In this document: one piece after another, positions 4,234 to 32,851 of the stretch | Numbering within the stretch: position 1 is the stretch's first letter | How the letters are laid out: each line of letters opens with the position of its first letter | Origin: Candidatus Bipolaricaulota bacterium | GTDB lineage: Bacteria > Bipolaricaulota > Bipolaricaulia > Bipolaricaulales > Bipolaricaulaceae | Direction: 5' to 3' | Assembly (NCBI GenBank): GCA_014361055.1 | Contig: JACIWI010000102.1 | Coordinates: forward strand, 1-40,818 | DNA length: 40,818 bases | Position numbers and translations under genes: made by a program | The notes under the pieces: generated by a model | What the model saw: only the letters and a program-made list of their open reading frames with translations | Databases searched by the model: none | What the model was told of the DNA's origin: nothing

Positions 4234-4239
4234 CCGACG

Positions 4240-5082: not shown

Positions 5083-5084
5083 CC

Positions 5085-18224: not shown

Positions 18225-19213
18225 GCGGTGTGCATCTCGTGTGGCAGGCAGCGGCGGTGATGGTCGGCAGCGGCGTCGTGGGCCTGGTCTACAAGGGCCT
18301 CGATCGCAAGCTCGCCGCCCGGATGCAGGCCAGAGTCGGCCCTCCGCTCCGGCAACCGTTCCTCGACCTCGGAAAGCTCCTTATGAAGGAGACGGTGGTC
18401 CCGCGGGACGCGGTGGGGTGGCTGTTTTCGGCGATGCCGTTCCTGGCGGCCGTGGCCTCGTTCACCGCCCTCCTCTACCTCCCCTGGGGGCCGTTCCCCC
18501 CGATCCTCCGCGGGTACGGGGACGCAGTGCTGGTCCTGTACCTCCTGGCGGTGCCAGCGTTGGCGATGGCCCTGGGCGGGTTCGCGTCCGGATCGCCCCT
18601 GGCCACGGTGGGCGGGCAGCGGGAGATCGTGATGCTCATGTCCTATGAGTTCCCGCTTGCGGTGGCGCTCGTCGGGGTGGTGTGGCGGCTCAGGGCCCTG
18701 GAGGTGGGACCGGCGTTCTCGCTGGCCACCATCTCCGCAAACCCGTTGTGGACGGCGGTGGGGCCGTTGGGGGTGTTCGGGCTGGCCATCCTCCTCGGCT
18801 GCCTCTTGGTGGTGACCCCGGCCGAGCTCTCCAAGATCCCGTTCGACATCCCCGAGGCGGAGACGGAGATCGCCGGGGGGCTGATGGTGGAGTACTCCGG
18901 GACCTACCTCGCCCTGTTCTACCTCGCCGACGCGGTGAAGACGGTGGCGATGGCGGCGCTGGTGGTGACCTTGTTCATCCCGTACGGGATCGCCGCGCCG
19001 CTCGGGGTCAAGGGCGTGGGCGGGCAGGTGCTCGACGTCGCGTTCTTCCTCGTCAAGGTGTTCGTGGTGATGTTCGCCGCGGTGACCACGGTGCGGGTGG
19101 CAATGGCCCGGTTCAAGGTGGATCAGGTGGTCCGCGGGTTCTGGCTTCAGATCACGGCGGCGGCCGTGGCCGGGTTGGTGCTGCTCGTGCTGGACAAGGC
19201 AGTGATGGGATGA
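18221..19213 (+). CDS. mbhM: Mbh hydrogenase subunit M (NuoH-like membrane anchor)
   Basis: 330 residues, about eight helices. NuoH/EchB family: KLAARMQARVGPPLRQPFLDL at the start (as YKGLDRKLAARMQARVGPP), then KLLMKETVVPRDA and the conserved loop ELSKIPFDIPEAETEIAGG (19 residues), rich in glutamates that couple redox chemistry to ion movement. It anchors the J/K/L/N arm on the membrane. ATGA overlap with mbhL at the start and with mbhN at the end. Confidence 0.95.
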   Translation: MSGVHLVWQAAAVMVGSGVVGLVYKGLDRKLAARMQARVGPPLRQPFLDLGKLLMKETVVPRDAVGWLFSAMPFLAAVASFTALLYLPWGPFPPILRGYGDAVLVLYLLAVPALAMALGGFASGSPLATVGGQREIVMLMSYEFPLAVALVGVVWRLRALEVGPAFSLATISANPLWTAVGPLGVFGLAILLGCLLVVTPAELSKIPFDIPEAETEIAGGLMVEYSGTYLALFYLADAVKTVAMAALVVTLFIPYGIAAPLGVKGVGGQVLDVAFFLVKVFVVMFAAVTTVRVAMARFKVDQVVRGFWLQITAAAVAGLVLLVLDKAVMG

Positions 19214-19602
19214 TCCTGAAGATCCTGTTCAGCCAGCTCTTCACGCGCCCGGCGACCAACCGGTTCCCGGCCAAGTACATGCCCAAGTCGGTGACCGGGT
19301 TCCTGGGAAAGATCCAGTCGGGCAAAACCAAGCTCGTGCCGCCGGTCCCGGTGCCGCCCCGGTTCCGGGGGCGGATCGCCTACGACCGCGACAAGTGCAT
19401 CGGATGCCAGCTGTGCATCCGGGTGTGCCCGGCCAAGGTGATCCAGTTCCGCCCCGAGGTGAAGAAGATCCGCATGCACGTGACCCGGTGTACGTTCTGC
19501 GCCCAGTGCGTGGACGCATGCCCGGTGGACGCGCTCGCCGTGAGCGATCAATTCCTGCTGGCCGACCCCGACCGGTCGGCGGAGTCCCTGACCGTCGAGT
19601 AG
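19210..19602 (+). CDS. mbhN: Mbh hydrogenase subunit N (two-[4Fe-4S] ferredoxin-like, NuoI-like)
   Basis: 130 residues. Two cluster motifs: C63, C66, C69, C73 (CIGCQLCIRVCP) and C94, C97, C100, C104 (CTFCAQCVDACP). The N-terminal 55 residues carry basic and proline-rich segments that dock on MbhM. It receives electrons from reduced ferredoxin and passes them to MbhJ. Last gene of the operon: a perfect hairpin begins right at its stop codon. Confidence 0.94.
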   Translation: MILKILFSQLFTRPATNRFPAKYMPKSVTGFLGKIQSGKTKLVPPVPVPPRFRGRIAYDRDKCIGCQLCIRVCPAKVIQFRPEVKKIRMHVTRCTFCAQCVDACPVDALAVSDQFLLADPDRSAESLTVE

Positions 19603-20469: not shown

Positions 20470-20912
20470 CTATGGAGGCGTGACCTCGTGCCAGGCATCC
20501 CAGAGCAGCTCCGCCTCGTGGTAGACGCGCAGGTGCCAGCGCCCGTGGGCCAGGCCCTCGTTGCGCCCCTCGTAGGGGATGAGGGCCAGGCATTGGACGC
20601 ACATTTCCTCGGAGGGTGCGGCCGTGATGGTCAGCACCAGCTCACCCTGGCTCGGGTGGCCGAGGACGGCGCGGAGGGAGTGGCATGGGGTTGGGGCGAG
20701 AAACGCGCCGGAGACCGTGAGGCCGCCTGCCTCGGCCTGGACCTGAACCCGCGCCGGGTCGGCGCTGCACGCTCCGGCGCCGGGCTGGAACACGGCCAGC
20801 TTGGCCCCCCATCGGGCAGGCAGCCGACGAGAAAGACGGGCCCGACGAGGAGCAGGGCAACGGAAGCCCTCTTCCATCTTCCAGCAAGCCACCTCGGGAT
20901 CATCGTGCCCAC
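20470..20912 (-). pseudogene. Lipoprotein gene with a one-base frameshift in a G run
   Basis: GTG 20912 has GGAGG 5 bases upstream and opens a lipoprotein signal: basic start (RWLAGRWKR), hydrophobic core (ASVALLLVGPVFL) and lipobox LVGC. After LPDGG the frame is lost at a run of six G (about 20815-20820). Adding one G would join it to the next frame, which continues AKLAVFQPGAGACSADP and a well-formed beta-rich domain (VQAEAGGLTVSGAFL, HGRWHLRVYHEAELLW) to a stop at 20470. The repaired protein would have about 147 residues, a small exported lipoprotein of unknown function with several Cys (PCHSL, CVQCLAL). This is either an indel error or a real slippage/phase-variation site. It is followed by the Met-rich exported protein gene on the same strand. 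Confidence 0.65.
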
Positions 20913-21006
20913 GATCACCTCCGCCTCGATTGTAGGTGCGAGGCGACGGAGATGGTATCCCTCCACGCCTCGACCTCGCCCTCTGAACGCTGGTCGATCC
21001 ACGCCC

Positions 21007-21035
21007 TTGGCCGTCTCTTCCGCGTGGGGTAAACT
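21007..21035 (+). promoter_or_regulatory. Promoter of the racemase-M29 trio
   Basis: TTGGCC (21007-21012), 17-base spacer, TAAACT (21030-21035), then only 7 bases to ATG 21043. There is no Shine-Dalgarno sequence, so the message is probably leaderless. Confidence 0.55.
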
Positions 21036-21042
21036 AAAATTG

Positions 21043-21747
21043 ATGCCCATAGAGCTACACGTCATCATCCCCGTGTCCACTGATCGCTGGAACGAAGGCG
21101 TGCGCCAGCTGTGCCAGGCCGCCGCCGATCGGGATACGGCGGTGAACGTGGTCCACCTCGCCCATGGCCCGGAGTCCATCGAGTGCACGTACGACGAGAC
21201 GCTGGTCGCGCCTTACGTGATCGAGGCCGCGGCCGCCGCCGAGCGGGCGGGCGCCGACGGGGTGATCGTGTACTGCTTCGGCAACCCGGCGGTGGATGGG
21301 GCTCGGGAGGCGGTCTCCATCCCCGTCGTCGGGCTGGGCGAGGCTGCCGAGGTGGCCGCCCTTCTCCTGGGCGACCGGTTCGGGATCATCTCCACCATCC
21401 CTGAGGCCGTGCCTCGACTGTGGAGGAAGGCCCGGACGCTGGGGGTGGAGGGACGGCTGGTTGGTGTAGTCCCCTTGGGCATTCCCGTCCTCGGCCTCGG
21501 TGACCACCGCCGGGCCGTGGAGGCGGGACTGGCAGCAGGGCGGGAGCTTGTCGCCCGCGGGGCACAGGTCGTGATCCTGGGCTGCGGGTCACTGCTGGGG
21601 GTGGCGGATGAGCTGCGACGGGGACTGGGGATTCCGGTGGTCGTGCCAGCGGTGGCAGCAGTGAAGCTGGCCGAGGCGTACGTGAAGATGGGCATCGCTC
21701 ACAGCAAAGCCGCCTATCCCCCTCCCCCGCCCAAGATCTGGCGCTGA
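21043..21747 (+). CDS. Asp/Glu/hydantoin racemase-family protein
   Basis: 234 residues. Two-cysteine racemase fold: C78 in DGVIVYCFGNPA and C180 in QVVILGCGSLLG sit at the ends of matching strands, as in hydantoin and aspartate/glutamate racemases, where the pair moves a proton between the two faces of the substrate. HLAHGPESIECTYDE near residue 45 is the usual N-terminal substrate loop. It is soluble and PLP-independent. First gene of a plus-strand trio with two M29-type genes, and it faces an operon holding two more two-cysteine proteins of the same fold. The substrate is unknown; a racemase of amino acids, hydantoins or N-acyl compounds is possible. Confidence 0.82.
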   Translation: MPIELHVIIPVSTDRWNEGVRQLCQAAADRDTAVNVVHLAHGPESIECTYDETLVAPYVIEAAAAAERAGADGVIVYCFGNPAVDGAREAVSIPVVGLGEAAEVAALLLGDRFGIISTIPEAVPRLWRKARTLGVEGRLVGVVPLGIPVLGLGDHRRAVEAGLAAGRELVARGAQVVILGCGSLLGVADELRRGLGIPVVVPAVAAVKLAEAYVKMGIAHSKAAYPPPPPKIWR

Positions 21748-21770
21748 ACACAGGAACGGGAGGTAGACCA

Positions 21771-22826
21771 ATGGAGATCGACGCGGAGACCATCCGTCCG
21801 GGTGTGGTGGGGATGCTGCGCGCGAACCTCGGGGTCCAGGCTGGGGAGTCCGTGCTCGTGGTAACCGACGTGCCGACGCCCGAACAGTGGGAAGAGTGGC
21901 CTGTATCGCAGCTTGAGGAGGCCTTCCGGCGGGCGGCGCTGGCTCGTCGGGTGGCGGAGATCGCCGCCGAAGAGCTGCCGGCCTGTGCGGTGGGTTTCCT
22001 GGCCTACCCGGCCACCGGACGCTCGGGGAGCGAGCCCGGCCGGGAGGTGGCGGCAAGGCTGCGGGAAGCGAACGTGGTGGTGGCCATCACCTCCTTTTCC
22101 CTCAGCCATACCCACGCCCGAGAGGGCGCGTGCCGGGCCGGGGCACGGGTGGCGAGCATGCCCCGCTTCGTGCCGGAGATGTTCTACCCGGACGGTCCCT
22201 TGGCCGTGGACTACCGCCGCATCGCGCAGGAGACGGCGCGGATCGCCGCCTGCCTCACCGCTGCCCGCGTGGCCACGGTGCGGTCCCCCGCGGGTACGGA
22301 CCTCGAATTCAGCCTGGAGGGGCGGGAGGGGCGGGTGGACGATGGTCTGTACCTCCGCCCCGGCATGTGGGGGAACCTGCCCGGGGGCGAGGCGTACATC
22401 GCCCCCGTGGAGGGGACGGCGGAGGGGGTGCTGGCCGTGGAGCCGGGTTGGCATCACCGCCTCGTCGAGCCGATGCGCCTGGTGTTCTCCGGCGGCACGG
22501 TGGTCGCCGTGGACGGCGGGGGAGAGGTGGGGGAACATCTACGGGGTTTGCTGGGCATGGAAGGCCGCCAACCCACCGCAGAAGAGCGGGCCCGGCGCCA
22601 CCTGGCCGAGCTGGGCGTGGGGACGAACCCCAACGCGCGGCGCACGGACATCACCCTGGAGGCGGAGAAGATCAAGGGTACCGTGCACGTGGCCATTGGG
22701 GACAACTCCCACATGGGCGGGGCCAACGTGGCCGACTATCACGCCGACTTCGTCGTCCCCCGGGCCACATTGCTCCTCGATGGGCAGGTGGTCATGGACG
22801 AGGGGCGGTGGACGTTCGGCTGGTAA
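21771..22826 (+). CDS. M29-family aminopeptidase
   Basis: 351 residues. The metal ligands of clan MQ/M29 (thermophilic aminopeptidase T type) can be read off: E207 (LPGGEAYIAP), E280 (LAELGVGTNP), H306 (GTVHVAIGD), H324 and D326 (YHADFVV). The M29 fold uses two metal ions and removes N-terminal residues from peptides. It is somewhat shorter than the usual ~410 residues. It starts at ATG 21771 behind GGGAGGT. It lies between a racemase-family gene and a second M29-like gene, suggesting peptide turnover linked with stereoinversion. Substrate preference cannot be told. Confidence 0.82.
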   Translation: MEIDAETIRPGVVGMLRANLGVQAGESVLVVTDVPTPEQWEEWPVSQLEEAFRRAALARRVAEIAAEELPACAVGFLAYPATGRSGSEPGREVAARLREANVVVAITSFSLSHTHAREGACRAGARVASMPRFVPEMFYPDGPLAVDYRRIAQETARIAACLTAARVATVRSPAGTDLEFSLEGREGRVDDGLYLRPGMWGNLPGGEAYIAPVEGTAEGVLAVEPGWHHRLVEPMRLVFSGGTVVAVDGGGEVGEHLRGLLGMEGRQPTAEERARRHLAELGVGTNPNARRTDITLEAEKIKGTVHVAIGDNSHMGGANVADYHADFVVPRATLLLDGQVVMDEGRWTFGW

Positions 22827-22836
22827 GGGAGGAGAG

Positions 22837-23901
22837 ATGGAGCTCGCGCTGGGTGTGGAACCGACCGATCAGTACCTCGCGTTCGAGGCGGCCGGGGCGG
22901 CGCGCAAGCTGGTGGAGGAGGTGATGCTCGTTCGCCCGGGCGAGAACGTGCTGATTACCGTGGACACGATGGGTGACCGGCGGGTGGCGGAGCTGGTCGC
23001 CCAGGCCGCCTACGCGGCTCGGGCCGTCCCCACCCTGGTGGTCTACCCCACCAGCCCGGCCCCGGTGATGGAGCCCCCGCCCCCGGTGGCCGGGGCAGCG
23101 GCGCGGGCCCAGGTGTGGATCGAGCTGGCTGTGGCTTACCTCCTGCACACCGCCGCTCACCGAGCGGCCCTCGCCGGCGGGTGTCGGTACATTTGCCTCA
23201 CCGGTATGGACGTGGACATGCTCGTGCGGTGCATCGGCCGCGTGGACTACCCGAAGATGCTCGCCCTAGGGGAGGCCCTGCAGCGTATCGTGGCCAGGGC
23301 CGATGAGGTGCGGGTCACCAGCCCCGCGGGCACTGACCTCGTGGCCCACAACCGCGGCCGACGGGTGCGGCACGCGGGCAAGCTCGCCGACACCCCGGGC
23401 GAGCCGATCATGCTCGGCGGGCAGATCTCCTGGTGTCCGGTGGAGTCCACGATCGAGGGCATGCTCGTGTTCGACGGCGCCCTGTGGCCGCCGACAGAGC
23501 TGGGCCGGCTTGCCTCCCCGGTGGAGCTGGAGGTCCATCAGGGGGTGATCGTCGCCGTACGGGGTGGGGCGGAGGCGCAGGTGTTCAAGCGGTGGCTCGA
23601 TTCCTTCGCCGACCCCAACATGTATCGCATCGCCCATTACTCTCTGGGGTTCAACCCTGGGGTGACCCGCCCCACCGGGCGGATCGTGGAGGACGAGCGC
23701 GTGTTCGGGTGCATCGAGATGGGCATTGGCACCCAGGGAGCACAGATCGGCGGGCTCACCTGGCAGGCGGCATCGCACACCGACGGAGTGGTCCTCTGTC
23801 CGTCCATTTACCTGGACGGGGAACCGCTGGAGGTCGACGGCCGGTACGTGCACCCGGAGGTAGTGGAGGCCTGCCGGAGCCTGGGCGTCCCCGGCTACTA
23901 G
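22837..23901 (+). CDS. M29-like protein with altered metal ligands (NicX-like)
   Basis: 354 residues from ATG 22837 (AGGGAGGAG upstream). It aligns with the M29 gene just before it, but the ligand set differs: the first Glu becomes Gln (GGQISWCPVES), the second becomes H267 (AHYSLGFNP), and the His of the GTxH motif becomes Glu (GCIEMGIG), while H314 and D316 (SHTDG) remain. H267/H314/D316 resembles the two-His-one-Asp iron site I recall for NicX, the M29-related 2,5-dihydroxypyridine dioxygenase (His265, His318, Asp320). A mononuclear metal enzyme is therefore more likely than an aminopeptidase. In an apparent anaerobe, oxygenase activity would be odd, so the reaction is unknown. Last gene of the trio, convergent with the AroM-like gene. 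Confidence 0.72.
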   Translation: MELALGVEPTDQYLAFEAAGAARKLVEEVMLVRPGENVLITVDTMGDRRVAELVAQAAYAARAVPTLVVYPTSPAPVMEPPPPVAGAAARAQVWIELAVAYLLHTAAHRAALAGGCRYICLTGMDVDMLVRCIGRVDYPKMLALGEALQRIVARADEVRVTSPAGTDLVAHNRGRRVRHAGKLADTPGEPIMLGGQISWCPVESTIEGMLVFDGALWPPTELGRLASPVELEVHQGVIVAVRGGAEAQVFKRWLDSFADPNMYRIAHYSLGFNPGVTRPTGRIVEDERVFGCIEMGIGTQGAQIGGLTWQAASHTDGVVLCPSIYLDGEPLEVDGRYVHPEVVEACRSLGVPGY

Positions 23902-23917
23902 GCAGGCACCCACGTCC

Positions 23918-24574
23918 CTAGACCAGCTCGGCCAGGGCCCGGGCGAGCATGGACCGAACGAGGAGCACAGGGGCTCCGGTAGCCGCCTGCACCTCGTCCT
24001 TCATCCGTTCGCTGTACCCGAAGCAGTGGAGGAGGAACGCCGTCGCTCCGCGCTCGGCCAGCCCCCGGGCAGCCGCGCCCAGGTGGGCCCTACCCGTATA
24101 CGGGGAGACCGACGCTCCGACCGCCTCCACCCCCCACCCCCGCACCTCCTCCACCGCCGGGGCCACCTGCCGCGGCGAAGGGACCAGGATCCCAAGCGGC
24201 CCAGGAAGGGCTGACACGTACGATCTCACGAGAACATGGGGCACGACCACGGGAACCCGGGCCCGCAAGGGGGGAAAGGTCCCGGAACACAGGATCCCGA
24301 TCAGCGCCACGTCTTTTTCCACAGCGCGGATCGCTTCCTGCAGGCGGTGATGGACGAACTCCCGGTGCACCGTGACCTCTCGGCCGTCGGAAAGGCGGGT
24401 GACGAGGGTGCTGTCCTCCCCAAGCGGGGGATGGGTGGCAATCTCGTCCACGGTGAGGCCGTCCAACGCCCCGGCTTGCACGATCTCCACCTCCGGGGGG
24501 AGATGGGCACGGATTTCGGGCACCACATCGTCCCGGGGCGCCTGCCCGATCGTCACGAGGGCGATCCGTTTCAT
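23918..24574 (-). CDS. AroM-family protein (two-cysteine racemase-like fold)
   Basis: 218 residues. The AroM opening ALVTIGQAPRDDVVPE is clear. Two cysteines sit where racemase-superfamily enzymes keep their catalytic pair: C96 in LIGILCSGTFPP and C184 in FLLHCFGYS. The function of AroM is not known; in E. coli it is cotranscribed with shikimate kinase aroL, but no aromatic-pathway gene is near here. It ends an eight-gene minus-strand operon; ATG overlaps the stop of the DUF1177 gene (ATGA). The neighbours (racemase-family, peptide transport, M20) suggest a role in processing an imported amino-acid derivative, perhaps as a racemase, isomerase or lyase. Confidence 0.8.
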   Translation of the reverse strand: MKRIALVTIGQAPRDDVVPEIRAHLPPEVEIVQAGALDGLTVDEIATHPPLGEDSTLVTRLSDGREVTVHREFVHHRLQEAIRAVEKDVALIGILCSGTFPPLRARVPVVVPHVLVRSYVSALPGPLGILVPSPRQVAPAVEEVRGWGVEAVGASVSPYTGRAHLGAAARGLAERGATAFLLHCFGYSERMKDEVQAATGAPVLLVRSMLARALAELV

Positions 24575-25500
24575 GCCTTGCCCAACGTTTGGAGGTGCGA
24601 TAGCGGCCCATACAGCGCGAGCAGCCGCGAGAACTCCTCCGGGTCGTAGAACCGGCACGCGCGGGCGGTGAACGCCTTGGCCACTTCCACGCAGAACCGC
24701 GCGGCCAGCTCCAGGTCGAGGGGGTGGTTGGCCCCGGTAGCGCACCCAGGCACGGGGATCGCCGCGGTGGTCGCTACCCCCACCACGGGGGCGGCGGTGG
24801 CAGTGGCGGGCTGGAGAATGCTGTTTAGGTGATGGATTCCGTTCCCGTAGGGGGTAATGTCCTGGGTGGTGATGGGGAAGACCACCGGTGGCTCCCCTGT
24901 GACATAGCGCATGATCTCCAGAAGGTCCTCGCTGGCCCGCAGGATGTAGCCTTCTTTGACGGTGGGGCTGATCGCGAACCCGCGGCGGTTGATGACCCAG
25001 TTGCCCTTGGTGGCGTCGACGGAGAGGATCGCCTCCATCCGTGGGTCCACTTCGTACTGGTTCATCGTCCCCATGTCCACCGGGGCGTCCATGAACGGGG
25101 CAGGGTCGTGGGGGATGATGGGGGCGTTGGGGCAGATGTGGGTGGCCACGAGCACGTCCCCGGGCAGAACGTCGCCGGAGCTGGCCATCCGTACCAGCTT
25201 GGCCGCGCAGGCCAGGGCGACGATGGCCCCGTCGGCGTCGGACACAAGCCCCAGCCGACTCGGACGGGCCCCGACCCCGCCCAACCGCCCGATCACCCCC
25301 AGCGTGGGCCCACGGCCCTGCCCAGGGATGCGGACCTTGACGAAGTCGGTGCTCCCAGCCTCGCCGTTCACCCGCACCACCCGCACCTCCTCCGCCCCCC
25401 ATCGGCGGAGCCACGCCGCCACGTCGTCCCCCGACGCATGGGGGCTCTCCAGGACCTCCATCGCTTCCATGACCTCACGCAGCACGGGAGCCACCTCCAT
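24571..25500 (-). CDS. DUF1177-family protein
   Basis: 309 residues from ATG 25500, overlapping the M20 peptidase gene by 26 bases; GTG 25503 is an alternative. It matches the conserved DUF1177 family of unknown function. Notable stretches are a histidine/aspartate-rich segment HICPNAPIIPHDPAPFMDA (19 residues, about 128-146) that could bind metal, SVDATKGNWVINRRGFA, and HHLNSILQP before a glycine/alanine-rich segment ending GCATGANHPLDLE. It is soluble, with no signal peptide. The family is often seen beside AroM-like, racemase-like and peptide-transport genes (from memory), as here, so it probably acts on the same imported compound. No reaction can be assigned. Confidence 0.78.
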   Translation of the reverse strand: MEVAPVLREVMEAMEVLESPHASGDDVAAWLRRWGAEEVRVVRVNGEAGSTDFVKVRIPGQGRGPTLGVIGRLGGVGARPSRLGLVSDADGAIVALACAAKLVRMASSGDVLPGDVLVATHICPNAPIIPHDPAPFMDAPVDMGTMNQYEVDPRMEAILSVDATKGNWVINRRGFAISPTVKEGYILRASEDLLEIMRYVTGEPPVVFPITTQDITPYGNGIHHLNSILQPATATAAPVVGVATTAAIPVPGCATGANHPLDLELAARFCVEVAKAFTARACRFYDPEEFSRLLALYGPLSHLQTLGKA

Positions 25501-26737
25501 CACCCGGCGAAAGATAGTCGTGGATGAGCAACGCATATGCTCTCGCGGCTTGGACAAGCTGGGCCACCGCCACCCGCTCATCGTAACCATGGATTCCTTG
25601 CAGATCTGCAGGACCGAACTGGAGTGTTGGGATCCCGTGGCGCCGGAAGAATCGGGCGTCGCTCGATGCCCACTGTAAGACCGGGCGGGACGTGTCCCCA
25701 GCGACCTCACGGATGATCCTGAGCACGAGCTGAACGAAAGGATGCGCGGGTGGGGTGTAGTTCGCCTCGATCGGTTCGCGAAGGGGGGTGATCTCCACTC
25801 CGGAACCAGCTCGCTCTTCCACCAATTGCCGGAAGAGGTCGAGCACAACCCCCACCGGGACCCCGACGGGCACCCGCAAATCGAACTCGGCCTCACATCG
25901 GCTGGCAACGATGTTCACCTTATCCCCACCGGAAATCCGCCCCACGTTCACCGTGACATGGTCTAAAACCTCAGCCTGAACCTCAAGACCTTCCTCGCGA
26001 AGGATGGCCTGAGTTTCGGAGATCAATCGACGGGGTTCCGGGGGAATGGTCCACGACCTTCCCCAAATGGAATAGACTGCTTCAATGACCTTTGTCATGC
26101 GCAGGATCGCGTTTTCACCAACAAGGGGCGATAGGCTGCCGTGGGCAGGGACCCCTCGGGTCATGGCCCGCAACCAGAGGGCCCCCTTTTGGCCGATGGT
26201 CGGATTGATCCCCGAGGGTTCGGCGATGAGGCACGCATCCCCCGTGAACCCTTGCTCAAGGAGCCAACGTGTTCCGTACCAACCCCCGGTTTCCTCGTCG
26301 GGGACGGCCATGAACAGGACCTTGCCCCGCAGGCTGTCCCACCGCACGGCCTCGCTGAGGGCCACGAGGAGGGCGGCCAAGCCCCCCTTCATGTCGCTCG
26401 CCCCCCGCCCGAGGACGTACCCCTCGCGCACCTCCCCGCCAAACGGGTCGAATGCCCACCGCTCGCGGTCGCCGGCTGGGACGACATCCATGTGCCCGTT
26501 CACGACGAGGCACGGGCCGGGGCCGAAGTCGAGCTCCCCGACCACACTCGTCATCCCCGGTGCGGCGGAAAGCTGGCGGGCGGGGATCCCCGCGCGATGC
26601 AGGCGCTCCAGGATGTACGCGGCGATCCCCGTCACGTCACAAGGCGGGTTCTCGCTGGGAAAACGAATGAGCTCGGAGCAGACCGTCGTCACCTCTCGCT
26701 CGCAGTCCCAGCGTTTGATCGCCTCGCTCACAGTCAT
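25475..26737 (-). CDS. M20-family metallopeptidase/deacylase (ArgE/DapE type)
   Basis: 420 residues. Di-zinc motifs of the M20 family: H82 and D84 in NGHMDVVP, D115 in GRGASDMKGG, E148/E149 in PDEETGG, then IAEPSG; a later His lies in GIHGYDER. The dimerisation lid sits in the middle (about 180-300). Relatives include acetylornithine deacetylase, succinyl-DAP desuccinylase and dipeptidases. Arginine or lysine pathway genes are absent nearby, and it lies in a peptide-uptake operon, so hydrolysis of an N-acyl amino acid or dipeptide is more likely. ATG 26737 has GAGGAGGG upstream and lies 9 bases after the permease stop. Confidence 0.88.
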   Translation of the reverse strand: MTVSEAIKRWDCEREVTTVCSELIRFPSENPPCDVTGIAAYILERLHRAGIPARQLSAAPGMTSVVGELDFGPGPCLVVNGHMDVVPAGDRERWAFDPFGGEVREGYVLGRGASDMKGGLAALLVALSEAVRWDSLRGKVLFMAVPDEETGGWYGTRWLLEQGFTGDACLIAEPSGINPTIGQKGALWLRAMTRGVPAHGSLSPLVGENAILRMTKVIEAVYSIWGRSWTIPPEPRRLISETQAILREEGLEVQAEVLDHVTVNVGRISGGDKVNIVASRCEAEFDLRVPVGVPVGVVLDLFRQLVEERAGSGVEITPLREPIEANYTPPAHPFVQLVLRIIREVAGDTSRPVLQWASSDARFFRRHGIPTLQFGPADLQGIHGYDERVAVAQLVQAARAYALLIHDYLSPGDGGGSRAA

Positions 26738-26746
26738 GGTCCCTCC

Positions 26747-27598
26747 TCAAATGCGCCGTTCGAACCTGGGGTCCAGGACGTCCCGCAGCCCGTCGCCGAC
26801 AAAGTTGAACCCCAAGGCGGTGATCATGATCGCAAGCCCGGGGAATGTGGAAACCCACCACGCGAAGCTGATGAGCCCACGGCCGTCAGCGATCAATGCC
26901 CCCCATTCCGGAATCGGGGGCTGGGCCCCCACCCCAAGGAAGCTCAGCGCCGCTGAGGAGAGGATGGCCGCCGGCATTTCCAGCGTAGTGTACACGACCA
27001 CCGGACCAAGGGTGTTGGGCAAGACGTGACGAAACAATATTCGTGTTCGGGAAGCACCCAAAGCGTAGGCCGCCGTCACGTAGTCCAACTCGCGTAGAGA
27101 GAGGACCTGTCCCCGAAGAAGCCGGGTGAATTGTCCCCACCCAGTTACAGCAATGGCTATGATCATCACTCCAATTCCACCACCCAACGCTCCCGCCAGA
27201 GCAAGGGCAAGCACTAACCCCGGGATGGACCACACGATGTCCACCGCCCGCATGATCAGGCCATCCACAACCCCCCCCGCGAACCCGGCCACCAGCCCAA
27301 GGATTCCTCCCAACACCATCTGAAGAACAACCACACCCATCCCGATAAGAAGCGCATAACGACTCCCGTACAGCACCCGACTTAAAAGGTCTCGGCCAAG
27401 CACATCGGTGCCCATGGGGTGCGTCGCCGATGGTGGGGACAGCAAGGCATCGAAGTCCATGGCCAGGGGGTTGTACGGAGCGATTACGTCGGCAAGCAGG
27501 GCCGTAAGTCCCACCGCCGCCACGAAGAACAGCCCGACTAAGGCGAGCCGGTTACGCGTGAACCTGCGAACTGCCCGCGACGAAAAGAACTGTTTCAT
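26747..27598 (-). CDS. dppC: Peptide ABC transporter permease, DppC type (second set)
   Basis: 283 residues. N-terminal cytoplasmic stretch, first helix (LALVGLFFVAAVGLTALLAD), external motif MGTDVLGRDLLSRVLYG, EAA loop ELDYVTAAYALGASRTRI and HVLPNTLGPV, ending GDGLRDVLDPRFERR. Same layout as the first module but clearly diverged from it. It is encoded 2 bases after dppB and 9 bases ahead of the M20 peptidase gene. It forms the channel with the preceding permease; ATPases are not encoded nearby. Confidence 0.92.
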   Translation of the reverse strand: MKQFFSSRAVRRFTRNRLALVGLFFVAAVGLTALLADVIAPYNPLAMDFDALLSPPSATHPMGTDVLGRDLLSRVLYGSRYALLIGMGVVVLQMVLGGILGLVAGFAGGVVDGLIMRAVDIVWSIPGLVLALALAGALGGGIGVMIIAIAVTGWGQFTRLLRGQVLSLRELDYVTAAYALGASRTRILFRHVLPNTLGPVVVYTTLEMPAAILSSAALSFLGVGAQPPIPEWGALIADGRGLISFAWWVSTFPGLAIMITALGFNFVGDGLRDVLDPRFERRI

Positions 27599-27600
27599 GT

Positions 27601-28539
27601 CTAACCGTAGCGGATCCGTGGGTCAATGAGCGTGTACGCGAAGTCCACGACGAGGTTGGCCAGGACCGTCAACAGGGCGATCACGAGGACAATGCCCTGG
27701 ACCACCGGGTAATCCCGTTCCATCACCGCGTTGACAAGGAGCCTCCCCATGCCCGGCCAGGCAAAAACTGTTTCTGTAATCACCGCTCCTCCGAATAGCC
27801 AAGGCAAGCGCAGCCCAAGCAATGTGACCACGGGTATCAGCGCGTTGCGAAGGGCGTGGCGAACCACAACGATGACTTCGTGCACCCCCTTGCTCCGTGC
27901 CGTCCGGATGTATTCTTCATTGATAACCTCGAGCATCGCCGAGCGAGTCAACCGGGTGAACAGGGCAATAGGAGGGAGCCCTAGGGTCAACACAGGGAGA
28001 AGTGCGGATCTCAGTCCGTCAACGGTCCACAGTGGTCCCCCCCTCCCGGAAATGGGGAGGAGCCGCAACCTCAAGCCAAATACCATCATCAACATGATCC
28101 CCAGCCAAAAATAAGGCATGGAAACCCAAAACAGAGCGACGAACCGGCTGACATTGTCAACGATGGTATAGGGGCGCATAGCGGAGATGATCCCGATGGG
28201 GATCGCGATCACTACGGTGAGGATCAGGGCGAGGATGGTCAGCTCCAACGTCGGGCCAATACGGGCCAGGATCAAGGTTGCTACGCGATCTTGGACGTGG
28301 ATGGACAGCCCAAGATCGCCCTGAACGACCCGGGTCAACCAGTTCCAGTATTGGACGTGGATGGGCTTGTCCAAACCAAGTTCGGCCCTCTTCTCCAAGA
28401 CCTTCTCCTCGGACACGTTGGGACCGAAGAGCAGACGGATCGGATCCCCGCTCACATGCATCAGGGAGAAGACGATGGCCGTGACCCCTATGAGAGTGGG
28501 GACCAACATCAACAGACGGCGAACAAGGTAGGCTCCCAT
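27601..28539 (-). CDS. dppB: Peptide ABC transporter permease, DppB type (second set)
   Basis: 312 residues. The start GAYLVRRLLMLVPTLIGV is typical of DppB/GsiC. An external segment holds RVVQGDLGLSIHVQDRVATL, the EAA loop is EYIRTARSKGV with HALRNALIPVV, and the end is LIDPRIRYG. It lies downstream of its binding-protein gene, from which it is separated by a perfect hairpin (28550-28582), just as in the first transport operon. It is likely to import the compound handled by the M20, DUF1177 and AroM-like products. Confidence 0.92.
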   Translation of the reverse strand: MGAYLVRRLLMLVPTLIGVTAIVFSLMHVSGDPIRLLFGPNVSEEKVLEKRAELGLDKPIHVQYWNWLTRVVQGDLGLSIHVQDRVATLILARIGPTLELTILALILTVVIAIPIGIISAMRPYTIVDNVSRFVALFWVSMPYFWLGIMLMMVFGLRLRLLPISGRGGPLWTVDGLRSALLPVLTLGLPPIALFTRLTRSAMLEVINEEYIRTARSKGVHEVIVVVRHALRNALIPVVTLLGLRLPWLFGGAVITETVFAWPGMGRLLVNAVMERDYPVVQGIVLVIALLTVLANLVVDFAYTLIDPRIRYG

Positions 28540-28549
28540 CCCTAGGCAA

Positions 28550-28582
28550 GCCCGGAGGCCGGGGTGGTCCCGGCCTCCGGGC
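28550..28582 (-). terminator. Perfect GC-rich hairpin between binding-protein and permease genes
   Basis: GCCCGGAGGCCGGG (28550-28563) and CCCGGCCTCCGGGC (28569-28582) pair over 14 bp with a 5-base loop, inside the 61-base gap after the binding-protein stop. Like the one at 3166-3198, it has no strong T-run. It probably lowers readthrough into the permease genes or protects the binding-protein message. Confidence 0.6.
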
Positions 28583-28600
28583 CTTTCCCCCTTCCTTCCC

Positions 28601-30196
28601 CTAGCGCTTGTACAACACCAAGGCCCGCATCAGCGGTGGCTGCCACGGGTGGGAGAACAGCTCGTCGAGCCCGCCCACGTCGCGGCGGGCGGCCACCACG
28701 TTTACGTTGACCGCCAGCGGGATCCACACCGCCGACTCTACCACAATGGCCTGAGCCACGACGAACGCGTCCCGGCGGAGCACGTCATCAAGGGCATTGG
28801 AAGACAAATCAAGGAGGGTATCGATGGTCTCGTTCTTCCACTGCCCGAAGTTGCTGGAGCCGATGTTCACGGAGTGGGTGAGGAACGTGAGGTATGGCTC
28901 CCCCATCCACCACGTGTTGCGGAAGATGCCGAGGTCATAGTCGGCAGCCCGCGCGCGGTCATACGTGGCCCCGACCTCGGCCAGGGCAAGGTTGACCTTG
29001 ATCCCCACCTTGGCCAACTGAGCCTGCACCACCTCCGCCGCCCGCCGCCATTGGTCGACGTTGGAGAAGGAGATCAGCGTGAGCTCAAGGCGTTTCCCAT
29101 CCTTCATCCGCACTCCGTCGCGGTCGACCGCTGTCCACCCGGCCTGTTCGAGGTAGGCCACGGACTTCTCGGGATCATACGCGTAGGCGATCTCCTCGAC
29201 CCCCTTCCAATAGCCGGTGGTCCCTGGCCCGACAAGGCCGTAGAGCGGGAACGCGATGCCAAACCAGGCTCCCTTGACGACCTCCTCCTTGTTGATCGCA
29301 TGAGCAATGGCGAGGCGAATGCGGCGATCATTAAACAGCTCGCGCTTCATATTGCAAACCAGATATTGCACACTATACGTGGGGGCCATGTAAACCTGAA
29401 GATTAGGGTTCGCAACCAGCTGCTGATAGCCCATGAGGGGGACGTCGAACGTATAATCGATGTTCCCGGCCAAGATCTCCGCAAGCCGTGTTGCAGCCTC
29501 AGGGATGATGCGCATGACGAGCTCTTCGGCGTGCGCTGGGCCAGGGTTAGAGATGTAGTCGGGGGCGTGGTTGTACGCGGCGAACCGCTTCATGACGATC
29601 CGGTCCCCGCGGATCCAGCGGTCGAACCGGTAGGGGCCAGTGCCTACCAGGCCCTTCACCCCTACCTCCTCATCGGGCATCGTGGCCAACCAATCCGCGG
29701 GCATGATGCTCGCATGGGCATCAGCGATGTGGTACAGGGCCAGCGGTTTGGGGGTAGCGAATTTAAAGATCACCGTGTAAGGGTCTGGGGTCTGGATCTC
29801 CGTGATTCCGTTGTACTTGGGGCCGAGGTAGTTCTCCAGTGGGGACAACCGGAAGTACCGCTCATAAGACGCCTTGACGTCACGGGAGGTCATCTCTTGT
29901 CCAGTGTGGAACAGGACACCCTGCTTCAGGTGGAATACTAGGGTCAGCTTGTCCTCGGACCACTCGAACGAGCGAGCCAGTAGAGGCACCGGCTGGAAGC
30001 TCGGATCCATGTCCAACAACGGTTCCACCACGTAGCTGAGGACCACCAGGGAGTGGAACCGGGTGGTCCGGTGTGGATCTAGAAAATCAGGCTCTTCCTG
30101 AAACGCAGTGACCATCGGCCTCTGGGTCTGCGCGGTGGCACCCAGTACGACCCCGAGGAGGCCCATCAGCACCAACAGCACTATGCCCTTTTTCAT
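28601..30196 (-). CDS. Oligopeptide-binding protein (SBP family 5)
   Basis: 531 residues with a signal peptide (MKKGIVLLVLMGLLGVVLGA, then TAQTQ). DppA/OppA fold: LARSFEWSEDKLTLVFHLKQ in the N-terminal domain, GTGPYRFDRWIRGDRIVMKR at the hinge, INKEEVVKGAW and TLISFSNVDQWRRAAE in the C-terminal domain. It captures a peptide-like solute outside the membrane and delivers it to the DppB/DppC pair downstream. ATG 30196 has GGAGG about 5 bases upstream. It follows a racemase-family gene by an 84-base gap without a clear terminator. It serves as the intact reference for the interrupted paralogue at 1578-3161. Confidence 0.93.
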   Translation of the reverse strand: MKKGIVLLVLMGLLGVVLGATAQTQRPMVTAFQEEPDFLDPHRTTRFHSLVVLSYVVEPLLDMDPSFQPVPLLARSFEWSEDKLTLVFHLKQGVLFHTGQEMTSRDVKASYERYFRLSPLENYLGPKYNGITEIQTPDPYTVIFKFATPKPLALYHIADAHASIMPADWLATMPDEEVGVKGLVGTGPYRFDRWIRGDRIVMKRFAAYNHAPDYISNPGPAHAEELVMRIIPEAATRLAEILAGNIDYTFDVPLMGYQQLVANPNLQVYMAPTYSVQYLVCNMKRELFNDRRIRLAIAHAINKEEVVKGAWFGIAFPLYGLVGPGTTGYWKGVEEIAYAYDPEKSVAYLEQAGWTAVDRDGVRMKDGKRLELTLISFSNVDQWRRAAEVVQAQLAKVGIKVNLALAEVGATYDRARAADYDLGIFRNTWWMGEPYLTFLTHSVNIGSSNFGQWKNETIDTLLDLSSNALDDVLRRDAFVVAQAIVVESAVWIPLAVNVNVVAARRDVGGLDELFSHPWQPPLMRALVLYKR

Positions 30197-30280
30197 CTGT
30201 TCCTCCTTTCACACCGACCAACTCCGTTCAGCATTGCTTTTTCACCCGCAACCATCCCGCGAAGAGGTACAACTGGACTC

Positions 30281-30928
30281 TCACCCCCTTCTGTTCAGGA
30301 CGCACGTGATCGCTGCCCCCATGGCCAGTACAGGGTCCACCACCACCACTGGAAGGGCCTGCCGCAGGGCCGCCGCCGCCCCCACCGTGCTGAACCCGGT
30401 GCAGGCGAGGCCGATCGCGCGGCAGCCCTGGTCGACGAGCCCGACGGCCGCCTGGACCACGGCGTCCATGGCCCCCGGCAGATCAGTGGTCCGGTGGACC
30501 CCCTCCACCTGCCTCCATGCCACCTCACACCCATGGAGGGCCCGCACGATGGCCTGGGGCACGTACGGGGCGATGGTGAGGATGCCCATCTTCGTCCCCA
30601 ACGCCCGCCCGACGAGCCCGAGGCAGGAACCGGCCCCCACCACGGGGATGGACAACGCCTCCCGCAGCTCGTCCACGCCGGGGTCGGCGGCACAGCTCAC
30701 GGCCACCACGTCCACGCGCGCCGCCAACGCTCGGCCCACCCGGACGATCTCGGGGACTGCCTGCTGCTCCAACGTCCTGTTGTAGAGGCCGCCCGGGAAG
30801 CCGTCGATCGCCTGGGTGAGCACGGCAAGCGTCGGGAACGCCTGCTCCAGGATGCGACCATGGACCTGCGCTTGTTCATGATCCAGGTCGCTTATGACGC
30901 GGATCAGCCCCACTCTGATCTTGGCCAT
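30281..30928 (-). CDS. Asp/Glu/hydantoin racemase-family protein (second)
   Basis: 215 residues. Paired cysteines C79 (DVVAVSCAADPG) and C176 (AIGLACTGFS) mark the two-base racemase fold; SIPVVGAGSCLGLVG and MGILTIAP are also family-like. It differs substantially from the racemase-family protein at 21043, so it is not a recent duplicate. ATG 30928 begins 2 bases after the regulator stop (TGACGATG), so the two are coupled. It is the first enzyme gene of the operon, upstream of the transporter. The substrate is unknown; inversion of an amino acid or cyclic amide after uptake is a reasonable guess. Confidence 0.8.
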   Translation of the reverse strand: MAKIRVGLIRVISDLDHEQAQVHGRILEQAFPTLAVLTQAIDGFPGGLYNRTLEQQAVPEIVRVGRALAARVDVVAVSCAADPGVDELREALSIPVVGAGSCLGLVGRALGTKMGILTIAPYVPQAIVRALHGCEVAWRQVEGVHRTTDLPGAMDAVVQAAVGLVDQGCRAIGLACTGFSTVGAAAALRQALPVVVVDPVLAMGAAITCVLNRRG

Positions 30929-30930
30929 CG

Positions 30931-31473
30931 TCAGAACGTGGGCGGGCTGACCGCCCAGATCCCCACTGCCTCCTCGTCGCCGGCGTTTTCGAACCGGTGA
31001 GGCTGCTCGCTGCGGAACGTGATGCTCTGGCCGGCCGTGAGCACGTACGCCTTGTCCCCAACCACGATGCGGACCTTTCCGGACAGGATCAACCCACATT
31101 CAATGCCCTCATGGATGTAGGCCTGGGCCCCGCTGCTCCCCCCTTTCTTGAGGCGAACCTTGAACAGGGCCACCTGGGCGTTGGGCGCCGAAAGGATTTC
31201 GTATTCAAGATGGGGCGACACGATGATGCGGCGCCGTTGCCCATCGGCGAGGACGGTTTGAAACGAGGCCAGGTTGTCTTCAAACAGGTGGACAACGGGC
31301 CGTCCCAAAGCGTCAGCGATTTTCTTCAGAGAAGTCAAGGAAGGGTTGATCTTCCCGTGTTCGAGCTTGCTCAAGTAGCTCTCGGACTTCCCAATCTTCG
31401 CTGCGAGCTCCTGCAAGGTCAACCCCTTCTGTAACCGCAACTCCCGCAACCGCTGACCAAGGTCGCCCGGCAT
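30931..31473 (-). CDS. XRE-family regulator with C-terminal cupin sensor domain
   Basis: 180 residues. A helix-turn-helix of the HTH_3/XRE type spans about residues 8-62 (LRELRLQKGLTLQELAAKIG, SESYLSKLEHGKINPSL). A linker leads to a cupin_2 barrel at about 105-175 (HEGIECGLILSGKVRIVVGD, ITFRSEQPHRFENAG), which in such proteins senses a small molecule or metal. ATG 31473 is preferred because the -10 box ends 9 bases upstream; GTG 31479 is possible. The palindrome in its own promoter suggests autoregulation. It is the first gene of the operon, so it probably controls the racemase, transport, M20, DUF1177 and AroM-like genes behind it. Confidence 0.88.
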   Translation of the reverse strand: MPGDLGQRLRELRLQKGLTLQELAAKIGKSESYLSKLEHGKINPSLTSLKKIADALGRPVVHLFEDNLASFQTVLADGQRRRIIVSPHLEYEILSAPNAQVALFKVRLKKGGSSGAQAYIHEGIECGLILSGKVRIVVGDKAYVLTAGQSITFRSEQPHRFENAGDEEAVGIWAVSPPTF

Positions 31474-31482
31474 GCTCACCCC

Positions 31483-31511
31483 AGTATAGGCAGATCTTGC
31501 CTAAATGTCAA
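31483..31511 (-). promoter_or_regulatory. Consensus promoter of the regulator operon
   Basis: On the minus strand: TTGACA (31511-31506), exactly 17 bases, TATACT (31488-31483), then 9 bases to the ATG. It is the best match to the sigma70 consensus in the window, so the operon would be strong unless repressed. Confidence 0.8.
31487..31503. promoter_or_regulatory. Palindromic operator inside the promoter spacer
   Basis: TAGGCA-GATCT-TGCCTA: 6-base perfect arms around 5 bases, spanning the spacer and touching the -10 box. A dimer of the XRE-cupin regulator bound here would block RNA polymerase. I did not notice a second intact copy by eye. Confidence 0.65.
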
Positions 31512-31648
31512 GTCAGCGCTCAAAGTTCGCTTGAATAGTAATTTCTTTTACGACATGGCTTGATTATCAGTCCAGAAAGACGGACCCCGGGCCATCCACC
31601 GGAGGAAATGGGGCATGAGCAACGCGGCACCCTTGGATACCGGATCCG

Positions 31649-32851
31649 TCAGACGAGCAGGCGGGCGAAGCGGCGACGGCCTACCCGTAGCACCATCCCC
31701 GCCCGCACCTCCACCCGATCTTGCGGGGACCCCACCTTGACCCCATCCAGCTGTACCCCCCCCTGCTCCACCAGCCGGCGCGCCTCCGACCTCGATGAAG
31801 CCAGCCCCGACGCCACGAGCAGCTCCACGATCCCCACCGCCCCGTCCGCATCCAAGAGCTTCCCCACCCGCACCTCCGGCATCTCCGCAGGAGGCTTCTC
31901 TTCCTCGAACACCCGCTCAAAGTGGGCCTGAGCTTGGCGGGCCGCTTCCTCGCCGTGGAACTGGGCGACCAACGTGAACGCCAGGCGCTTCTTCGCCTCT
32001 TTGGGGTGCAGGCCTTGGACCTCTTCCCAGGGGATCCCGGTGAGGAGCCGGTAGTACTGGGGCATGAGCTCATCCGGAAGCGACATCACCTTCCCGAACT
32101 GCTCATCGGGCGGCTCGGCGATCCCGATGTAGTTCCCCCGGGACTGGGACATCGCAAACACCCCGTCCGTGCCGAGGAGGAGGGGCATGGTCAGGATCAC
32201 CTGGGGCTCTTGGCCATACGCCTCCTGGATGTCGCGGCCGATGAGGAGGTTGAACCGCTGGTCCGAGCCCCCGAGCTCCACGTCCGCCCGCACCGCCACC
32301 GAATCGTAGGCCTGGGCCAGGGGATACAGGAACTCCATGATCGTGATCGCCGACCCTTCGTGGAACCGGCGCTGGAAGTCCTCCCGCTCCAGCATCCGGG
32401 CCACGGTGTACCGCGCGGTGAGGCCGATCACCTGGGCCAGGGTGAGTTTCTCCAGCCATTCGGAGTTGTACCGCACCTCAGCCCGCTTCGGGTCCAGGAT
32501 GCGGAACGCCTGCTCCCGGTACGTGTGCATGTTGCGTTCGATCTCCTCAGGCGGCATCGGCTCGCGCGTCTTGGACTTGCCGGACGGATCGCCGATCCGG
32601 CGGGTGAAGTCCCCCACCACCAGCACCGCGGTGTGACCGAGGTCCTGGAACACGCGGAGCTTGCGGAGCACCACCGCATGGCCGAGGGTAAGATGTGGGG
32701 CGGAGGGGTCGATCCCGAGCTTGACCCGCAGGGGCTGGCCCTGGCGCAGCGATCGCTCGAGCTTGGCCGCCAACTCCTCCCGCGGGAGGAGGGTCTCTAC
32801 GTTGTGCTCGATCAAAGCCAGTTGTCGTTCTACTTCCGGGCGAACGTCCAT
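31649..32851 (-). CDS. tyrS: Tyrosyl-tRNA synthetase
   Basis: 400 residues, the bacterial TyrZ-like type. HIGH-equivalent HLTLGH (53-58), GDFTRRIGDPSGKSKTR, tyrosine/tRNA-site stretches EFLYPLAQAYDS and ELGGSDQRFNLL, and a C-terminal S4 RNA-binding domain (about 340-400; ASGLASSRSEARRLVEQGG). The signature loop is degenerate: residues 233-237 read AMSQS where KMSKS is normal, so both lysines that help activate ATP are missing, while the following GNYIGI is kept. It lies 10 bases after gyrA on the same strand with GAAGGAG ahead of the ATG, so it is probably cotranscribed. Confidence 0.92.
   Translation of the reverse strand: MDVRPEVERQLALIEHNVETLLPREELAAKLERSLRQGQPLRVKLGIDPSAPHLTLGHAVVLRKLRVFQDLGHTAVLVVGDFTRRIGDPSGKSKTREPMPPEEIERNMHTYREQAFRILDPKRAEVRYNSEWLEKLTLAQVIGLTARYTVARMLEREDFQRRFHEGSAITIMEFLYPLAQAYDSVAVRADVELGGSDQRFNLLIGRDIQEAYGQEPQVILTMPLLLGTDGVFAMSQSRGNYIGIAEPPDEQFGKVMSLPDELMPQYYRLLTGIPWEEVQGLHPKEAKKRLAFTLVAQFHGEEAARQAQAHFERVFEEEKPPAEMPEVRVGKLLDADGAVGIVELLVASGLASSRSEARRLVEQGGVQLDGVKVGSPQDRVEVRAGMVLRVGRRRFARLLV

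Follow-up and report, generated by a model that had tools for sequence, protein, structure and literature searches.

The window analysed here is a stretch of 40,818 nucleotides from a Candidatus Bipolaricaulota bacterium (contig JACIWI010000102.1), in which 11 genes are arranged in two convergent units whose stop codons lie 16 bp apart. All of the genes that a previous reading of the letters alone (the sequence-only reading) had named were present, in two convergent units and with the short gaps or overlaps that it described. Spacing within the units ranged from -26 to +84 bp, and DUF1177 and AroM overlap at an ATGA. The features, with the match on which each assignment is based, are the following.

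21043..21747, plus strand: R1, Asp/Glu/hydantoin racemase family protein (PF01177, 155 bits)
21771..22826, plus strand: M29a, M29-type aminopeptidase-like protein (PF02073, 30 bits; alignment to AmpS/PepS/AmpT)
22837..23901, plus strand: M29b, same superfamily as M29a, closer to 2,5-dihydroxypyridine 5,6-dioxygenase (profile match to 7cn3)
23918..24574, minus strand: AroM, two-cysteine racemase-fold protein (PF07302, 220 bits)
24571..25500, minus strand: DUF1177, predicted zinc-exopeptidase-fold enzyme (PF06675, 418 bits)
25475..26737, minus strand: M20, ArgE/DapE-family deacylase or peptidase (TIGR01910, 242.5 bits; PF01546)
26747..27598, minus strand: DppC-type permease (position and homology to DppC of other loci)
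27601..28539, minus strand: DppB-type permease (PF00528, 154 bits)
28601..30196, minus strand: SBP_bac_5 solute-binding protein with a signal-like N-terminus (PF00496, 281 bits)
30281..30928, minus strand: R2, Asp/Glu/hydantoin racemase family protein (PF01177, 72.5 bits)
30931..31473, or to a GTG at 31479, minus strand: XRE-cupin regulator (PF01381 and PF07883)
31483..31511, minus strand: sigma-70-like promoter of the minus unit, TTGACA-17-TATACT (promoter match)
31487-31503, inside the minus-unit promoter: putative operator, inverted repeat TAGGCA-N5-TGCCTA

The intact genes of the cluster are under purifying selection. Outside the two units, an MR_MLE protein encoded in a further unit of the window (385-7150) had L-Ala-D/L-Glu epimerase as its best model, below the cut-off.

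Across 80 bacterial and archaeal DUF1177 loci, AroM is the commonest next gene, and it was the next gene on the same strand in 35 of 71 loci. Among 60 relatives in the phylum, AroM co-occurred in 13 of the 15 genomes bearing DUF1177 (Fisher p=4e-8). R2-type racemases, M29 proteins, OPT or Dpp transporters and DUF917 (S-Me-THD-like; 36 loci) were also found as neighbours, together with PucR regulators (about 15 loci), an NCS1-type permease and a carbon-nitrogen hydrolase. DUF1177-AroM clusters occur in the archaea Thermococcus (L040) and Bathyarchaeota (L015), and DUF1177 clusters in the genera Paenibacillus and Microbacterium. The window's own genome gave no match to DUF917, with positive controls. 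The neighbourhood search, which had been named beforehand as the refutation test of the sequence-only reading, found the families recurring together across phyla. These results indicate that the association of DUF1177 with AroM is far beyond chance and that the two form one functional unit.

An alignment of 63 DUF1177 sequences contained 55 invariant columns. A sequence search against the PDB returned no match, and a literature search returned one passing mention, in a paper about another DUF. When the AF2 model (pLDDT 87.6, pTM 0.91) was compared with solved structures by Foldseek, the top match was S. griseus aminopeptidase (E 8e-9), and M17, glutaminyl cyclase and DapE were also retrieved (TM 0.5-0.56). 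DUF1177 is therefore predicted, from a moderate fold match, to share the zinc-exopeptidase fold of M28/M17/M20 and glutaminyl cyclase. Profile comparison with an M20 alignment detected no homology (hhalign probability 1.8), so that this kinship rests on the predicted fold. Residues R72, D88/D90, H121, D162 and D214/H224 are invariant and, by topology only, stand at the ligand places of the canonical His-Asp-Glu/Glu-Asp-His set. Unlike M28 and M20, DUF1177 has no His at the first position, and His121 takes the place of Glu-Glu; the family's candidate metal residues would thus form a set that departs from the canonical one yet is invariant. Because it lacks both the canonical M28/M20 ligand pattern and M20 profile similarity, DUF1177 may not be a hydrolase.

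Each of the three racemase-fold proteins keeps a cysteine pair, with one Cys after a strand of each half: C78/C181 in R1, C79/C176 in R2 and C96/C184 in AroM. The pairs had been recognised from the sequence, with the second R1 cysteine placed at C180 instead of C181. Both residues were invariant in 23 R2-type and in 46 AroM sequences. R1 and R2 scored above the PF01177 cut-off of 31 bits; the nearest solved structures of R1 were the allantoin racemases 3qvj (E 8e-25) and 5lfd (E 4e-24), the R2 family profile matched solved structure 2eq5 (E 2e-93), and both R1 and this profile matched OpaE (9qbx). On these matches, R1 and R2 are classed as members of the allantoin/hydantoin racemase group. The AF2 model of AroM (pLDDT 96.5) matched aspartate, allantoin and glutamate racemases in Foldseek (1jfl, E 3e-7, TM about 0.63). 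Structure prediction and structure search therefore support AroM as a two-cysteine racemase-fold protein, with putative racemase or isomerase activity; a literature search combining AroM and racemase gave nothing relevant. Two-Cys racemases normally act only where the alpha-carbon is activated, for instance in free amino acids or cyclic amides. The proposal of three working racemases could not be maintained across the lineage, since the R1 gene is broken in both sister genomes, which makes R1 dispensable for cluster function. In locus L002 the first Cys of R1 is replaced. A dN/dS value for R1 against L002 was set aside because the alignment crosses a frameshift and the value is inflated.

The two proteins initially described as an M29 pair turned out to differ. 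M29a (351 aa, compared with 408-418 aa for AmpS, PepS and AmpT) passed the PF02073 cut-off of 27 bits and keeps all five M29 metal-ligand positions shared with these enzymes (E207, E280, H306, H324 and D326), which were invariant in 21 sequences. M29b had no Pfam match; Gln196 stands at the first M29 Glu, the second is replaced by H267, and most M29 ligands are missing. Its profile matched 2,5-dihydroxypyridine 5,6-dioxygenase (7cn3), its best solved relative, with E 5e-29 versus 3e-5 for PepS, and an invariant triad (H267/H314/D316) aligned to the H/H/D metal triad of that enzyme (H265/H318/D320). The window's lineage is expected to be anaerobic, where O2-dependent ring cleavage of the 7cn3 kind would be odd. 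M20 passed the ArgE/DapE model TIGR01910 (cut-off 217.6 bits), has canonical and invariant metal residues (H82, D115, E148/E149 and E173), and belongs to a family whose best matches are desuccinylases.

The importer had been thought to be dedicated to the pathway. The cluster, however, contains no DppD/DppF ATPase genes, and the genome's only oligo_HPY pair (DppD-DppF), located on contig C53 without permeases, serves a genome that has 12 SBP_bac_5 genes. Solved relatives of the binding protein were AgaA, AppA, DppA and NikA; since it resembles dipeptide, opine, nickel and heme binders alike, its ligand is not readable from sequence. As regards regulation, the minus-unit promoter was the sole match in 20900-31700 (chance expectation 1.4), and L002 keeps the TTGAC/TATA elements and the AAGATCTG core. 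The nearest curated model of the XRE-cupin protein was PuuR, below the cut-off. The putative operator stands in front of the minus unit and not in front of the plus unit; the window contains no further perfect copy of it, and looser matches were at chance level, so that the idea of the XRE-cupin protein also controlling the plus unit was dropped. An XRE regulator was matched in 4 of 96 loci, PucR regulators being commoner; it is not part of the conserved gene set. A switch over both units, as first envisaged, is thus not upheld.

Cyclodipeptide oxidase (CDO) pairs, consisting of a nitroreductase and DUF6092, were found in 4 of 45 DUF1177 genomes, where they adjoin R1-type racemase, M29b-type, DUF917 and Dpp genes in differing combinations. 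In L102/L025 a single same-strand run reads M29b-CDOA-CDOB-SBP-DppBCDF-M29a-M29b-DUF917-DUF1177-AroM. PF01177 racemases, AroM, DUF917, OPT, Dpp, EamA and peptidase genes were reported in 2024 to be enriched around cyclodipeptide oxidases, with no function assigned to the surrounding set and no mention of DUF1177 (PMC11055893). The claim of an undescribed pathway is accordingly narrowed: the gene set had been noticed, and DUF1177 and the function had not. The predicted fold of DUF1177, the M29a/M29b split and the overlap of the gene set with CDO surroundings are new here.

Taken together, these data most favour a cluster that takes up and salvages small peptides closed to ordinary peptidases through cyclisation (2,5-diketopiperazine or hydantoin-like rings) or through D residues; we give this reading an even chance. 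The racemase-fold, amidohydrolase-type and peptide-importer parts fit the import and stereoinversion originally proposed. What the analysis shows is the gene content, the recurring associations, the folds and the conservation of catalytic positions; the substrate, the order of reactions and the roles of DUF1177, M29b and the regulator are inferred. SBP-DppB-DppC would import the compound, powered by the orphan DppD-DppF pair. R2 and AroM, here with R1, would then use 1,1-proton transfer to change the configuration at the acidic alpha-carbon, so that D or D/L compounds end up in the L form. A metal-dependent amidohydrolase, for which DUF1177 and M29b are candidates, would open the ring or blocked amide, and the M29a aminopeptidase and M20 deacylase/peptidase would free amino acids for fermentation. 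The XRE-cupin protein would be an autorepressor, probably relieved by ligand binding. A more specific version, possible though rather doubtful, is that DUF1177 is a new family of metal-dependent cyclic-amide (diketopiperazine) hydrolases, with AroM its dedicated isomerase, in bacterial and archaeal cyclic-dipeptide salvage; if true, it would be the previously missing ring-opening enzyme. Diketopiperazines withstand ordinary peptidases, hydrolases for them were not known in 2013, and Paenibacillus and Microbacterium isolates open LL but not DD diketopiperazine (PMC3852281). They build up when protein-rich material is heated (PMC3852281, PMC6152636).

It is unlikely that the substrates are instead linear D-residue peptides, such as murein tri- or tetrapeptides, handled by racemase-fold enzymes and peptidases with no ring opening. 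The Dpp/Opp importer type fits such peptides, and a murein-peptide-like unit in the window (385-7150: the MR_MLE dipeptide-epimerase-like protein, SBP, DppB, DppC, a DAP/ornithine-type decarboxylase and an NlpC/P60 endopeptidase) is followed by a Pab87-type protein (9205-10572). However, the Thermococcus and Bathyarchaeota that carry DUF1177-AroM have no murein, an activated alpha-carbon is normally needed by two-Cys racemases, and DUF917, PucR, the NCS1-type permease and the carbon-nitrogen hydrolase indicate cyclic amides. These same neighbours, and the best matches of R1 and R2, would also suit a hydantoin/N-carbamoyl amino acid pathway of racemase, ring-opening hydrolase and M20 as carbamoylase. 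We consider this quite improbable, as no DUF917 was detected in the window's genome, M20 sides with ArgE/DapE and desuccinylases, no carbamoylase model is among the 25 NCBIfam matches listed, and the importers are peptide-type (Dpp or OPT).

Purine catabolism, suggested by the allantoin racemase-like R1 and by PucR, is given very little weight because neither an allantoinase nor an allantoate amidohydrolase is recognisable in the cluster; such a pathway would also not be expected to include a peptide importer or two enzymes of peptidase type. Biosynthesis or tailoring of cyclic peptides, the context in which NozR, OpaE and AlbAB work (PMC10156859, PMC12661438, PMC11055893), is likewise highly improbable: the cluster has an importer and three enzymes of exopeptidase type, and neither a peptide synthetase nor a cyclodipeptide synthase was seen in it. 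Of the CDO clusters, 88% lack a cyclodipeptide synthase (PMC11055893). If the salvage reading is wrong, the cluster still represents a common module for the catabolism of D/L peptides or cyclic amides. DUF1177 and AroM are widespread, highly conserved families that are now directly testable as enzymes, and the link to CDO clusters suggests an answer to how microbes open diketopiperazines.

With the hydantoinase process genes (racemase, hydantoinase, carbamoylase) the cluster shares the logic of a racemase and an M20-type enzyme, but it contains no recognised hydantoinase or carbamoylase. NozR, which isomerises the diketopiperazine cyclo-Trp-Trp (PMC10156859), and OpaE, which isomerises a fused cyclic peptide (PMC12661438), share with R1 and R2 a two-Cys dyad and their place in the allantoin/hydantoin racemase branch; R1 is nearer to allantoin racemase than to OpaE, and NozR and OpaE act in biosynthesis. 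In comparison with CDO clusters, no DUF917 was found in the window's genome, and no CDOB (PF19585) either, by a model that matches other genomes and whose controls here were also unmatched. CDO clusters without a cyclodipeptide synthase (PMC11055893) share gene types with this locus, and the CDO cluster of L102/L025 continues directly into DUF1177-AroM.

The cluster consists of two transcription units.

21043-21747, plus strand: R1, an Asp/Glu/hydantoin racemase family protein
21771-22826, plus strand: M29a, an M29-like protein
22837-23901, plus strand: M29b, an M29-like protein
from 31479 to an end at 23918, minus strand, in this order: XRE-cupin regulator (from 31479), R2 (a second Asp/Glu/hydantoin racemase family protein), SBP (an SBP_bac_5 solute-binding protein), DppB, DppC, M20 (an ArgE/DapE-family deacylase/peptidase), DUF1177 and AroM

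Since the minus unit finishes at 23918, the stop codons of these convergent units lie 16 bp apart. The closest named relative at the locus, L002, also from Bipolaricaulota, carries all eleven genes in the same arrangement, and its DUF1177 protein is 92% identical. Elsewhere in the window, 16953-19602 encodes Complex I/hydrogenase-like subunits with a 49-kDa subunit homologue, followed, by eye, by a membrane subunit and then a ferredoxin-like protein.

To follow the families across genomes, DUF1177 was searched in the genomes of 84,980 species, which gave more than 560 relatives. The best 80 loci, which were kept, came from Bipolaricaulota, Bacillota, Chloroflexota, Spirochaetes, Synergistales, Aminicenantes, Actinomycetes, Proteobacteria, Thermococcus and Bathyarchaeota. 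AroM was the next same-strand gene after DUF1177 in 35 of 71 loci, and DUF917 preceded DUF1177 in 26 of 69. Of the 73 usable loci, at least 47 have AroM no more than six genes from DUF1177 on one side or the other; the corresponding numbers are at least 31 for DUF917, 28 for R2-type racemases, 25 for M29a-type proteins, 20 for OPT transporters, 17 for DppB and 13 for PucR regulators, all of them lower bounds because many contigs are short. Among 60 related genomes, which are not fully independent, DUF1177 and AroM occurred together in 13, DUF1177 alone in 2 and AroM alone in 4 (p=4e-8), and DUF1177 and DUF917 occurred together in 10 (p=9e-6). A lack of recurring association across genomes would have counted against the sequence-only reading; the neighbour counts and co-occurrence do not refute it. 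A family of ∼280 aa without any Pfam match, F13, adjoins DUF1177 or AroM in six loci (L020 6155-6997 and five more), in Bacillota-type genomes.

The paired cysteines reported for the three racemase-fold proteins were correct except at one position, which is C181 rather than C180. A structure prediction of AroM built on 46 sequences (pLDDT 96.5) had as its nearest solved folds aspartate, allantoin and glutamate racemases and arylmalonate decarboxylase. In the model, C96 follows strand 91-95 and C184 follows strand 179-182, one cysteine per half, and both are invariant in the 46 sequences. The R2 family profile matched 2eq5, a solved, uncharacterised 'hydantoin racemase', with E 2e-93, and a Thermococcus relative of R2 sits within a DUF1177-AroM cluster (L040). 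The nearest relatives of R1 are allantoin racemases. Because characterised members of the allantoin/hydantoin racemase branch act on rings, including allantoin and hydantoin, a cyclic amide would be the simplest reading of the substrate. In the same branch, NozR acts on the diketopiperazine cyclo-Trp-Trp (PMC10156859) and OpaE on the fused peptide ring of oxepinamide (PMC12661438).

R1 is intact in the window. In G001, a sister genome of the same genus, 158 internal bases are deleted from it (L108 2194-2740), and in L002 (13755-14450) a substitution removes the first catalytic cysteine; the frameshift after it falls in a homopolymer and could be a sequencing error. Both sister genomes keep the remaining ten genes intact, and these are under purifying selection (dN/dS of 0.03-0.40 against G001 and of 0.045-0.27 against L002). 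Judged from these gene copies, R1 is dispensable.

The 'M29 pair' proved to be of two kinds. M29a, aligned to AmpS, PepS and AmpT, carries the complete set of five ligand residues, Glu, Glu, His, His and Asp (E207, E280, H306, H324 and D326), at the positions of the metal ligands of AmpS. In contrast, M29b had no Pfam match and scored E 5e-29 against 2,5-dihydroxypyridine dioxygenase and E 3e-5 against PepS. It keeps H267, H314 and D316, which match the iron ligands H265, H318 and D320 in the dioxygenase structure 7cn3, and has Gln and His at the two Glu-ligand positions of M29. Mononuclear-metal relative is a better label for M29b than peptidase.

DUF1177 is a very uniform family, whose members share 56-76% identity with the window protein (mean column identity 62%), and a sequence search of the PDB found no solved relative. 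Its structure prediction (pLDDT 87.6, pTM 0.91) matched the Streptomyces griseus M28 aminopeptidase (E 8e-9), and also M17 leucyl aminopeptidases, glutaminyl cyclase, DapE and an M20-type aminohydrolase, with TM-scores near 0.5-0.56. The M28/M20 metal-ligand places, assigned by strand and helix topology rather than by coordinates, are occupied by R72, D88/D90, H121, D162 and D214/H224, all invariant. Unlike canonical M28/M20 enzymes, DUF1177 lacks the first His and has His where they have Glu-Glu. The plain reading of the model is a putative metal-dependent amidohydrolase with altered chemistry; alternatively, DUF1177 may be inactive and have a binding role instead.

The cluster importer comprises SBP, DppB and DppC, and no ATPase gene was found in the cluster. 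The host genome (1.56 Mb in 150 contigs) contains 12 SBP_bac_5 genes and only two oligo_HPY ATPase genes, an adjacent DppD-DppF pair on contig C53 (L107 4596-6620) that lies between CTP synthase and a further non-transport gene, with no permease genes alongside. The importer probably borrows this pair, which may serve many importers of the genome. As for regulation, a strong sigma-70-like promoter, TTGACA-17-TATACT, precedes the minus unit and makes its start codon almost leaderless; an inverted repeat lies within the promoter spacer, and L002 keeps the hexamers and the AAGATCTG core. No such repeat was found upstream of the plus unit, which is preceded by a TAAACT box kept in both the window and L002. 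The two units are probably controlled separately. The XRE-cupin switch earlier placed over the pathway was not borne out: the repeat lies only before the minus unit, and the regulator, present in 4 of 96 loci, is by that count outside the conserved shared set.

The opposite end of the window carries a second peptide-salvage-like unit.

385-7150: MR_MLE dipeptide-epimerase-like protein (385-1542), SBP, DppB, DppC, PLP decarboxylase of Orn/DAP type and NlpC/P60 endopeptidase

The best NCBIfam model for the 385-1542 protein is L-Ala-D/L-Glu epimerase, under cut-off, and the unit looks like murein-peptide recycling. Its SBP_bac_5 gene (1473-3161) has an in-frame TGA at ∼2199-2201, which may reflect a pseudogene, a sequencing error or recoding. 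The product of 9205-10572 combines a beta-lactamase fold with a Pab87 octamerisation domain; Pab87-type enzymes act on D-amino-acid peptides, an activity in keeping with the theme of the window.

For the cluster itself, a D/L-epimerising catabolism of small peptides or cyclic amides is the likely general function. We give an even chance to the narrower proposal that it takes up and salvages dipeptides that are cyclised or contain D residues. In this scheme AroM and R2 would isomerise the imported compound, a metal enzyme, DUF1177 or M29b, would open the blocked amide, and M29a and M20 would set the amino acids free. There are two main rival substrates. The murein-peptide-like unit at the window's other end favours linear D-peptides, which we nevertheless consider unlikely; hydantoin or N-carbamoyl amino acids are slightly less likely still.

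Most cyclodipeptide oxidase (CDO) gene clusters are without a cyclodipeptide synthase, and they are enriched in PF01177 racemases, DUF917, AroM, Dpp/OPT/EamA transporters and peptidases (PMC11055893). We found CDOB, the DUF6092 protein, in 4 of 45 genomes carrying DUF1177. The nitroreductase (CDOA)-DUF6092 pair was confirmed as genes at three of these loci, and at the fourth the nitroreductase was confirmed beside the CDOB match. The genes around the four loci are combinations of R1-type racemases, M29a/b, DUF917 and Dpp genes. In Chloroflexota, a 192,801-bp contig (L025 and L102) carries a single same-strand run that includes both the CDO genes and DUF1177-AroM.

L025/L102, one strand: M29b-CDOA-CDOB-SBP-DppB-DppC-DppD-DppF-M29a-M29b-DUF917-DUF1177-AroM

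Outside the phylum, the M29a and M29b proteins of this contig score highest against the window's own pair. Searches of the window's own genome detected neither CDOB nor DUF917, and oxidation and DUF917 hydrolysis are therefore outside the route here. Parts of the gene set were already noted around CDO genes in 2024 (PMC11055893), in a text from which DUF1177 is absent. Four points are new here: DUF1177-AroM as a core unit found across phyla, a predicted fold for DUF1177, the split of the M29 pair into two kinds and the physical join of DUF1177-AroM to a CDO cluster.
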